Shown in pieces: positions 10,626 to 38,763 of a DNA stretch of 44,553 nucleotides. Numbering within the stretch: position 1 is the stretch's first letter; every line of letters begins with the position of its first letter. A program made the translations under genes and the position numbers. The DNA is from Candidatus Faecalibacterium intestinigallinarum (GTDB taxonomy: Bacteria > Bacillota > Clostridia > Oscillospirales > Ruminococcaceae): contig DXHQ01000071.1 in assembly GCA_019113345.1 (NCBI GenBank), positions 1 to 44,553 on the forward strand, given 5' to 3'. Under the pieces are notes generated by a model. That model did no database searches and was not told the origin of the DNA. It saw nothing but the letters and a program-made list of their open reading frames with translations.

Positions 10626-10643
10626 CATAGCAAGAAAGTTCGT

Positions 10644-10753
10644 TTCAGGGCGGGGTGCAATTCCCCACCGGCGGTACAGCCCGCGACCACCCCCCAAAGG
10701 GTGCTGACCCGGTGAAACTCCGGGGCCGACAGTATAGTCTGGATGGAAGAGAC
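10644..10753 (+). ncRNA. FMN (RFN) riboswitch
   Basis: The conserved RFN core is readable: an AGGGCGGGG opening, AATTCCCCACCGGCGGTA, CCCGCGA, then GTGAAACTCC, GGGGCCGACAGT, ATAGTCTGGATG and GAAGAGACG at the 3' end. It lies between a promoter and the ribU terminator hairpin at 10778-10823, so FMN binding should favour termination. Confidence 0.96.
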
Positions 10754-10777
10754 GACGGACAGAATTGTTGTATCGTT

Positions 10778-10888: not shown

Positions 10889-11530
10889 ATGCAAGCAAAC
10901 AGTGAAACCAAAACCGCAGCCCCTGCCCGCACCGGCGGGCGCGACCAGGTCCGCAAGCTGACCGTCACCGCCATGCTGTCGGCGGTGGCCTTTGTGCTGA
11001 TGTTCCTGGATTTCCCCATCCCGATGATCATGCCGTCCTTCGTCAAGATGGACTTCTCCGACCTGCCCGAACTGCTGGGCGCCTTCGCCCTCGGGCCGAT
11101 GTACGGGGTGCTGATCAGCCTGATCAAAAACCTGATCCACCTGCTGCTGGCCAGCTCGACCGGCGGCGTGGGCGAACTGTGCAATTTCCTGTTCGGCGCG
11201 GTCTTCGCCTGGGTGGCCGGCTTTGTGTACAAGCGCAACAAGACCCGCCGCAGCGCCGTCCTCGGCGCGGTGCTGGGCGCGGCGGCCATGGCCATCGTCA
11301 GCATCCCCCTCAACTACTTCCTGACCTACCCGGCCTACGTCGTCATCTACGGGATGCCGCTGGACGCCATCATCGGGATGTACCAGGCCATCCTGCCCTC
11401 GGTGGGCGGGCTGCTGGAGTGCCTGGTCATCTTCAATATGCCCTGGACCCTGGCCAAGGGTCTGCTGGACGCCGTGCTCTGCATGCTGATCTACAAGCCC
11501 CTGTCGCCCATCCTGCACGGCCGCCGGTAA
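10889..11530 (+). CDS. ribU: Riboflavin ECF transporter substrate-binding component RibU
   Basis: RibU is the membrane S-component that captures riboflavin and associates with the shared ECF energy module (encoded elsewhere). The 213-residue product has six predicted membrane segments and family segments such as RKLTVTAMLSAVAFVLMFLD, PSFVKMDFSDLPELLGAF and GPMYGVLISLIKNLIHLL. The N-terminal 20 residues are a hydrophilic lead. I chose ATG 10889 because GGGAGG lies at 10875-10880; upstream in-frame ATGs fall inside the riboswitch. A small GGGGC/GCCCC hairpin touches the ribosome site. The FMN riboswitch directly upstream supports the assignment to flavin uptake and its repression by FMN. Confidence 0.96.
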   Translation: MQANSETKTAAPARTGGRDQVRKLTVTAMLSAVAFVLMFLDFPIPMIMPSFVKMDFSDLPELLGAFALGPMYGVLISLIKNLIHLLLASSTGGVGELCNFLFGAVFAWVAGFVYKRNKTRRSAVLGAVLGAAAMAIVSIPLNYFLTYPAYVVIYGMPLDAIIGMYQAILPSVGGLLECLVIFNMPWTLAKGLLDAVLCMLIYKPLSPILHGRR

Positions 11531-25163: not shown

Positions 25164-25183
25164 AGCGTGTCTTGCGACACGCT
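25164..25183 (+). repeat. Perfect 8-bp hairpin leading into the three-hairpin element
   Basis: AGCGTGTC-TTGC-GACACGCT lies directly between the tRNA terminator and the dispersed element. The other element copy has only a short remnant (AAAGCCTTCTAG) in the corresponding place. Confidence 0.6.
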
Positions 25184-25362
25184 TTAGGGGGGGACCCATT
25201 TCTGCGCGCAGTCGCGCGGCAGAAATTCCTCCCCCCTAATATTCCCCCGGGGACAAAATTTCCCGCAGAACCATGCACTCGGCCCAAAGGGCCTCGCACA
25301 CTCTCTGCGGGAAATTTCCCTGTCGGGGTCCCGGCCGTACGCACATGTCGTCCGGCCGGGAC
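25184..25362 (+). repeat. Dispersed three-hairpin element, copy A
   Basis: Three stem-loops in order. H1: TTAGGGGGG (25184-25192) with CCCCCCTAA (25231-25239), enclosing ATTTCTGC/GCAGAAAT and a GCGC/GCGC tip. H2: a 14-bp stem (25256-25269 with 25304-25317), enclosing GCACTC, a GGCCC-AAA-GGGCC hairpin, and TCGCACACTC. H3: a 10-bp stem GTCCCGGCCG with its complement (25328-25337 with 25353-25362), with loop core ACGCACATGTCG, followed by TTTTT so it can terminate. The second copy, on the minus strand at 38589-38763, shares the layout and loops with compensatory stem changes. It fills most of the gap between the tRNA and the ClC gene. Confidence 0.85.
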
Positions 25363-25402
25363 TTTTTATGGTCTGGTTATCTGCCAAACGCTTCCGGCGG
25401 GC

Positions 25403-38293: not shown

Positions 38294-38327
38294 CTCAGCC
38301 GCGCAGTCGCACGCGTGAGAGGCAATA
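38294..38327 (+). repeat. Direct repeat, left copy, of the rfbB-pfkA gap
   Basis: CTCAGCCGCGCAGTC, GCACGCGTGAGAGGCAATA. It is repeated, with two extra C bases and one substitution, at 38473-38508, so the repeats bracket the R2 copy B. Confidence 0.75.
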
Positions 38328-38372
38328 TAGCCCTCTCCGTCACAGTCCGCTTGCGCGTCCTGTGCCACCCTT

Positions 38373-38479
38373 GGTTGCGGTGCCCTGTTTTTGCTGCGCG
38401 GGCGGTAGCCCGCTTGCAAAAAGCAGACCGCTGCCCCTGCTCCGCTTCGGCTGTTTCTGCCGCAGGCAGCGCCTCAGCT
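38373..38479 (-). repeat. Dispersed repeat family R2, copy B
   Basis: On the minus strand this 107-base block matches 28092-28197 almost throughout. The tip of one hairpin differs (GGGCTACCGCCC versus GGCTTTAGCCC) but remains paired. Its left end is within the direct-repeat bracket. Confidence 0.88.
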
Positions 38480-38508
38480 GCGCAGTCCCGCACGCGTGAG
38501 AGGCAATA
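38473..38508 (+). repeat. Direct repeat, right copy, of the rfbB-pfkA gap
   Basis: The second copy of the 34-36 base direct repeat (see 38294-38327); its left edge overlaps the end of R2 copy B by seven bases. Confidence 0.7.
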
Positions 38509-38588: not shown

Positions 38589-38763
38589 GTCCAGCCGGGC
38601 GACATGTGCGTCCGGCTGGACACATCCAGGGAAATTTTCCGGCGGGAGTGTGCGAGGCCGAAGGCCGAGTGCGCGGTTCGCCGGGAAATTTTGTCGGAAA
38701 GGGGGATACTAGGGGGAAAACATTTCTGTCCTGCGTATGCAGGCAGAAATGGGTCCCCCCTAG
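38589..38763 (-). repeat. Dispersed three-hairpin element, copy B
   Basis: On the minus strand, starting six bases after the pfkA stop: H1 CTAGGGGG/CCCCCTAG enclosing ATTTCTG, CCTGC-ATAC-GCAGG and CAGAAAT; H2 AAATTTCCCGGCG with CGCCGGAAAATTT (one mismatch) enclosing GCACTC, GGCC-TTC-GGCC and TCGCACACTC; H3 GTCCAGCCGG/CCGGCTGGAC with the same loop core ACGCACATGTCG. Compared with copy A at 25184, at least five stem pairs change on both sides. Confidence 0.85.

Follow-up and report, generated by a model that had tools for sequence, protein, structure and literature searches.

What keeps a set of hairpins intact when it occurs twice in one stretch of DNA with different stems and the same loops, and does the fold act as RNA or belong to a mobile repeat? 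The question arose from a 44,553-nucleotide contig of Candidatus Faecalibacterium intestinigallinarum, here called the window. A first-pass annotation, made from the letters alone, had described the blocks at 25184-25362 (plus strand) and 38589-38763 (minus strand) as two copies of a three-hairpin element lying behind tRNA-Pro (copy 1) and the phosphofructokinase gene pfkA (copy 2), respectively. The places, the stem differences, the identical unpaired parts and both neighbours were correctly read, and the folds are real: against dinucleotide shuffles the z scores are -8.3 for copy 1 and -6.3 for copy 2, with 0 of 200 shuffles reaching the native value in each case. The anatomy is richer than three hairpins (Table 1). 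The core of the element consists of five helices (H1a, H1b, H2a, H2b and H3), the "loop" of H3 holds two to three further base pairs, and another hairpin, H0, precedes H1 in many copies, copy 1 included. As judged from the flanks of the copies, the full unit is about 220 bp long and runs from approximately CAGCGTGTC to GACAGTCTG, with hairpins H0 to H3.

Table 1. Features of the window that bear on the element (positions in the window)
Feature	Position	Strand	Remarks
FMN riboswitch	10637-10758		Rfam match; upstream of called gene 10889-11530; source of the control family
H0, copy 1	25164-25183	+	8-bp hairpin, loop TTGC, abuts H1 directly; read from sequence
H1, copy 1	25184-25239	+	Outer stem H1a; inner stem H1b carries a single bulged base
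H2, copy 1	25256-25317	+	Stem, conserved internal loop, variable inner hairpin
H3, copy 1	25328-25362	+	Stem of 10 bp; apical part conserved, includes CACATGT
T-tract and altered right end, copy 1	25363-25375	+	TTTTTATGGTCTG; TTTTTTGACAGTCTG in many other copies
H3, copy 2	38589-38621	-	Followed by GGTTCTGAAAA, a tail without T-tract
H2, copy 2	38632-38691	-	
H1, copy 2	38709-38763	-	
Phosphofructokinase stop codon	38770-38772	-	Copy 2 begins 6 nt after it and has no canonical H0 (class A)

Three features of the sequence deserve mention in their own right. CGCAC/CGCAY occurs three times on the plus strand, in the H2 internal loop and the H3 apical part (GCGCACTC, TCGCACAC, ACGCACATG), and to judge by the letters it is perhaps a repeated protein-binding motif. 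The sequence TTGACA occurs in the common right end, where it might serve as an outward-facing -35 box and, together with flanking DNA, make up promoters. Next to copy 2 (window 38300-38500) there is a second, GC-rich repeat (GGCAGCGCCTCAGCTTCGCAG or its complement), which elsewhere lies inside the H1 of the element (e.g. L184, ~270-400), where the outer H1 stem can still pair; because insertion inside H1 recurs in several copies, the composite of element and GC-rich repeat may itself move.

Both copies proved to be members of a far larger family. A pattern search of the window's own genome with the H3 loop, one mismatch allowed, found 58 places, compared with 4 for the reversed control pattern. 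A covariance model (R1), built from 19 aligned copies (alignment A3) with a 51-pair structure set by hand from an RNAalifold result, identified in this 2.2-Mb draft genome at least 50 full-length copies (161 bits or more) and at least 14 weaker ones (79-140 bits), counts that are lower bounds because 150 of the 783 candidates were scored. The remainder of the 127 R1 matches consists of brief stretches of H1, hits to its palindrome on the opposite strand and weak fragments. In the seven of the 14 weaker copies that were read, H1 is absent or set off from H2 and H3, several times with another repeat in between. Two of the 50 copies (C75:6242 and C106:38) have identical flanks and may represent one place on two contigs. 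Contigs start or end in or beside a copy at C75:2, C30:1, C88:1, C26:1 and the end of C104, among others, so the repeat probably breaks assembly, another reason to read the copy numbers as minima.

Of 31 genomes of the genus, 11 have matches, the window's own included, and the other 20, eight of them single-contig assemblies, give no match at E 1e-4; nor does any of 30 genomes of other genera at that threshold. The carriers among the matches listed include F. gallistercoris, F. faecigallinarum and Faecalibacterium sp. An121 and An122, names that suggest the chicken gut as the carrier habitat. Copies L070 and L126 lie on contigs of 3 kb filed under Pullilachnospira and Gemmiger assemblies and are possibly misbinned Faecalibacterium sequence. 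Dozens of intergenic places in some Faecalibacterium genomes are thereby explained, which is useful for annotation.

The large number of copies allowed the covariation analysis that the first-pass annotation had proposed. In an alignment (A5) of 102 copies, 50 from the own genome and 52 from relatives, one of them incomplete, 98.0% of the stem cells pair and 30 of the 51 pairs have changed on both sides; none of 500 shuffles reaches either value, and slid structures used as a control give 33.5-48.7% pairing. A5 was fitted to the structure, and a MAFFT alignment of 19 copies gives 94.5% pairing and 25 pairs changed on both sides, again with 0 of 500 shuffles. The weakest measure, the count of further pair types, was reached by 54 of 500 shuffles for the 19 copies and by 16 of 500 for the 102. 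In the H2 internal loop and the H3 apical part, most positions are 93-100% constant. The claim of a structure under selection thus holds as a claim of constraint, supported by covariation beyond shuffled and slid controls, by near-constant loops and by motifs common to other genera.

These other genera came to light in wider samples. Of 247 genomes sampled from the family, 8 have R1 matches at E 0.001 or less; six of these belong to genera other than the own one (G108, G187, G204, G239, G272 and G273), and three of these six (G108, G187 and G272) contain strong full-length copies. The stems differ in the other genera, and GACAAAATTT, CGCGCAC, CGCACAC and AATTTCCCTG are kept, with GCATGTC mostly kept. 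A second model (R2), which omits the degenerate copies L302, L308, L309 and L314 as well as partial copies, matches 10 of 394 genomes in the order, of which three belong to the own genus; the matches L321 and L322 score low and were not counted as members. Read by eye, the R2 matches of families f14 and f13 have both the H3 apical motif and the H2 loop motif, and those of f20 (G451) have the H3 motif without the H2 one. Matches in other families are treated as probable because their scores are low (32-53 bits); on the resemblance of their motifs, relatives of the element probably exist there.

Averaged over all columns, unpaired positions are 87.0% conserved and paired positions 84.9%, values that lie close together because the H1 and H2 hairpins are variable at their tips and, in parts of their stems, invariant. 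At one orthologous site (L107/L158) the flanks are 95% and the elements 86% identical, and the H1 tip has been exchanged on both arms; in two further orthologous pairs (L134/L037 and L101/L083) the element is as similar as the flanks or more so, such that the element diverges faster than its flanks in one of the three full-length orthologous pairs aligned. The exchange of a whole tip, the similar overall conservation of paired and unpaired columns and the small number of wobbles or mismatches are all compatible with stems that have no function, in a selfish repeat whose palindromes stay perfect through template switching as the DNA replicates. Template switching is a published route to perfect stems, which it can create and help to maintain, although in the available part of the source the authors themselves call the evidence for maintenance circumstantial (PMC8794818). 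A neutral process of this sort would not, however, spare the near-constant H2 and H3 motifs, which are common to genera with other stems, and we regard it as distinctly improbable as the whole explanation.

The element is mobile, its structure is kept and its target is terminator-like. Among 93 copies, 14 have flanking direct repeats above the 99th percentile of 8556 cross-pairings (approximately one expected), 11 of them above the 99.9th, and 10 of the 14 repeats abut both ends of the element; in a smaller set of 66 copies there were 10 with flanking direct repeats. The duplications align over 11-30 bp, the best over 29/29 bp (L104) and 26/26 bp (L086), and by eye most are terminator-like hairpins. 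The other 79 of the 93 copies, including copy 1 of the window, are without a clear target duplication. Beyond the own genus, in other genera and families, flanking direct repeats exceed the control maximum at 5 of 22 loci (L301, L326, L312, L330 and L319); in L326, L330 and L319 the right repeat lies 56-83 nt past the modelled end, so the unit is longer there. Orthologous sites without the element complete the picture. At the tRNA-Pro site it is absent from all eight well-matching relatives over the 520 nt read, and four relatives (G002, G016, G021 and G013) have tRNA-Pro followed by a terminator and no element. At the pfkA site none of the 26 relatives with a readable 3' flank (up to 330 nt) has an intact copy; G002 has a left-end remnant, and an H1 string match in L200 and L207 is due to chance, no element being present on reading. 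The flanking direct repeats and empty orthologous sites support the suggestion, one of those made at the outset, of a mobile structured repeat.

Nothing among the candidates searched was identified as the mobilising gene. The element's ends, CAGCGTGTC...GACAGTCTG, form short, imperfect terminal inverted repeats (7 of 9 end bases inverted, by eye and without statistics). A larger parent element with the same ends was not found in the own genome outside the known copies, in a draft assembly that breaks at repeats; the other matches to the end pattern there are coding-like sequence, a lone H0-like hairpin (C51:9288) and a lone right-end-like string (C7:7635). The hairpin at C51:9288 (L179; CAGCGTGTCGAAAAAG...CGCCACGCTG), which stands without H1-H3, is perhaps a remnant or a source of H0. 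Transposases of the IS1202 type, which we take to be covered by model NF033594, exceed the cut-off in none of the 31 genomes, and weak partial matches appear in six, three of them carriers. Nor do the ends of the element fit an IS1202-family MITE: they are CAG...CTG, and those of the family are TGT...ACA according to the part of the source available (PMC10132070). Nine of the 11 carriers, the own genome among them, have no Y1 transposase, and in the other two there is a fragment or a match interrupted by a stop; the remaining nine genomes with Y1 transposase matches are non-carriers. Viral contigs searched with two strict exact patterns, and plasmids and phages searched by blastn with copy 1, gave no match.

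Where the copies sit relative to genes, called here with a codon model made for this analysis and not from annotation, bears on whether the element also acts as RNA. In a set of 92 copies, overlap with a called gene never exceeds 60 nt; among the 63 of them with both neighbours, 28 are convergent, 21 tandem sense, 11 tandem antisense and 3 divergent. The copies divide into those without (class A) and those with (class B) a canonical H0, an assignment made by an H0 text pattern, so that a few class A copies (L040, L055) have H0-like hairpins. Class A copies have a same-strand gene upstream in 38 of 38 cases and are sense in 21 of 21 tandem contexts, and 30 of them begin no more than 20 nt from the end of the sense gene. 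Class B copies have a sense gene upstream in 42 of 54 cases and are sense in 15 of 26 tandem contexts, which is no clear strand bias. The supposed position behind genes therefore stands, mostly at 3' ends, with strict orientation for class A and an unclear one for class B in tandem contexts; the random orientation that the first-pass annotation had named as telling against its reading is thus partly borne out, by the lack of a clear bias in the class B tandem copies, and not in class A.

The left edge of class A is often a small hairpin built with the last bases of the gene, the stop codon lying in its loop in several copies; in L306, from the wider sample, the stop codon is likewise inside a hairpin loop. 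Stop-spanning hairpins of at least 5 bp occur in 7 of 28 class A copies (gene end 0-20 nt upstream, identical copies counted once), compared with a mean of 1.1 after swapping the arms that follow the stop; 0 of 2000 permutations reach the observed seven. A looser test of 30 copies with hairpins anywhere gave 11 of at least 5 bp against 5.3 expected, the maximum over 300 permutations being 9. These hairpins suggest that such repeats become part of gene ends. At the other end, a hairpin followed by a T-tract is present in most of the 102 copies. H3 does not seem to be simply a terminator, as many class A copies (at least 15) and several other-genus relatives are without a T-tract next to it. A codirectional gene lies within 60 nt of 8 of 15 tails without a T-tract and of 8 of 63 others (Fisher p 0.0016, with uncorrected labels, of which at least L168, L171 and L165:1501 are T-less tails called T and L128 is the opposite).

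This arrangement raises the possibility of a cis-acting RNA read from the plus strand, a 3'-UTR or intercistronic element that would protect or process the upstream mRNA or bind a protein through its loops, and end transcription where a T-tract follows H3, with mobility secondary. The constant orientation of class A fits plus-strand transcription better than a role of the bottom strand as DNA, and the extension of hairpins into coding sequence, the T-less tails close to codirectional genes and the near-constancy of the H2 and H3 loop motifs point the same way. On the other side are the class B tandem copies without clear strand bias, the more stable folding of the minus strand and the kinds of base pair that are kept. 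As a general account of the element we consider plus-strand RNA somewhat unlikely; a plus-strand 3'-UTR role of the stop-codon class is the chief rival to the mobile-repeat reading, alongside which it may also hold.

In an RNA helix of the strand that is read, G·U pairs are expected to outnumber A·C mismatches. The 5202 stem cells of A5 comprise 5052 Watson-Crick pairs, 22 G·T, 62 A·C, 41 others and 25 gaps, and 8 of the 22 G·T cells fall at one H1 pair. Counted once per cluster of similar copies, G·T stands at 21 and A·C at 59 or 52 (binomial p 0.00003 and 0.0004), and the excess is present in both class A (G·U 17, A·C 36) and class B (5 and 26). The FMN riboswitch of the same genus, used as a control, shows the opposite, with 26 G·T and 2 A·C among 690 cells (23 sequences, of 30 fetched loci, and 30 pairs; Fisher p 3e-10 for the difference from the element), although its structure came from RNAalifold on the same alignment and thus leans to standard pairs. 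The excess of A·C over G·U suggests that the stems are restored to Watson-Crick pairing as DNA, or that the other strand matters, or both; a mutation or repair bias might also produce the asymmetry, and A5, as said, was fitted to the structure. Of the initial reading as a 3'-UTR or small RNA, then, the position at gene 3' ends survives, and covariation as the mark of a sense-strand RNA is unsupported in its present form. Covarying interspersed repeats are easily filed as RNA, and here 102 copies covary without a G·U signature on the strand that was read.

If the other strand is the one that matters, it could do so as a functional minus-strand RNA with the hairpins in the order H3, H2, H1 and H0. 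Each plus-strand A·C is a minus-strand G·U, which makes the count 62 to 22 in favour of the minus strand (52-59 to 21 per cluster), yet this is far weaker than the 26 to 2 of the control. On the minus strand, moreover, the conserved H2 internal loop can pair as a GUGUGC/GUGCGC helix that includes G·U pairs and a tandem GA/GA step, and in L326 ordinary pairs, as read by eye, take the place of that step. The minus strand also folds more stably in 101 of 101 copies tested, with RNA and DNA parameters alike. This is weak evidence, since the energy is set by the composition of the fixed motifs and a lower value is expected for any G/T-rich strand; nor is it proof of strand, the FMN control being non-discriminating in this respect (plus strand lower in 13 of 23). 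In tandem class A contexts no gene reads the minus strand into the element, and a minus-strand RNA seems to us quite unlikely.

Taking the evidence together, we consider it probable that the element, in Faecalibacterium and related bacteria, is a mobile non-coding repeat made up of several hairpins and belonging to the same general kind as the YPAL repeats discussed below, and that its folded single strand is read by an enzyme. We infer a single-strand substrate, an enzyme acting on it and the bottom strand as the strand concerned. An enzyme supplied in trans would recognise the folded strand through its loops and bulge, leaving the stems free to take any sequence, and would join the element to the foot of a target hairpin, which would be duplicated in the process. 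The folded form that counts would be DNA, as suggested by pairing that is nearly Watson-Crick-only with more A·C than G·U, and probably the bottom strand; mismatched stems would be restored by copying templated on the hairpin. Insertion would presumably be tolerated, given that it duplicates the terminator and that H3 together with its T-tract is able to end transcription, and copies directly behind stop codons may persist as 3'-UTR or intercistronic hairpins. In its boldest form, as a new class of mobile DNA whose folded bottom strand is spliced by a trans-acting enzyme onto the foot of a terminator or stop-codon hairpin with duplication of that hairpin, this proposal is speculative and somewhat unlikely to hold in full; if true, hairpin-to-hairpin insertion would explain the choice of target, the hairpin-length duplications, the strict Watson-Crick upkeep and the strand asymmetry. 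The landing sites and the upkeep of the fold suggest a little-known kind of mobile element, and one in which it can be asked how palindromes stay perfect and which enzyme targets terminator hairpins.

How does the element compare with known systems? The statement that no named element matches agrees with Rfam, in which no family matches it at the gathering score; the window yields only tRNAs and the FMN riboswitch, and sub-threshold hits alone appear at E up to 10. A search of the open-licence PMC literature found no description of this Faecalibacterium repeat, which is not proof that it is undescribed. The attC sites of integrons are conserved in structure over sequence, have extrahelical bases and are substrates as folded bottom strands. 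The element resembles them in keeping structure rather than sequence, in its extrahelical base and, on the reading proposed above, in being used as a folded bottom strand, and differs in having several hairpins and a duplicated target hairpin. Group IIC introns insert at transcription terminators and so share the target, but here the terminator-like hairpin is duplicated, and the element has no Rfam match to a group II intron. REP elements are tied to Y1 (RAYT) transposases, which are absent from the window's genome and from 8 of the 10 other carriers. REP elements and the present repeat are alike palindromic, numerous and extragenic, and some of each supply their neighbours' stop codons, so far as the part of the source available describes REP (PMC3733652), whereas the Faecalibacterium unit is far longer and multi-hairpin, with no GTAG or CGTC terminal tag seen. 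SPRITE of Streptococcus pneumoniae is terminator-like and enriched behind genes, especially convergent ones, and SPRITE, BOX and RUP are, as here, small structured repeats thought to be mobile; their architecture is different, and duplication of a terminator hairpin and a stop-codon hairpin are not mentioned for them in the part of that source available (PMC3049150).

The closest known kind, likened by description and behaviour rather than by sequence and on the strength of a review available in part, appears to be YPAL/RU-2 of Yersinia (De Gregorio et al. 2006, as reviewed in PMC2229807), a 168-bp repeat with internal inverted repeats that duplicates targets of 3-26 bp spanning or next to dyad symmetry. 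As described there, YPAL shares with the element its small size (about 220 bp here), a base composition without A+T richness, inverted repeats within the unit, duplicated targets whose length varies (aligned over 11-34 bp here), dyad-symmetric targets, empty and filled sites and a location behind genes. The two differ in that the hosts are unrelated and that the Faecalibacterium repeat has three core hairpins with loop motifs common to several genera, a stop-codon class with a locus-specific hairpin, and covariation that is nearly Watson-Crick-only.
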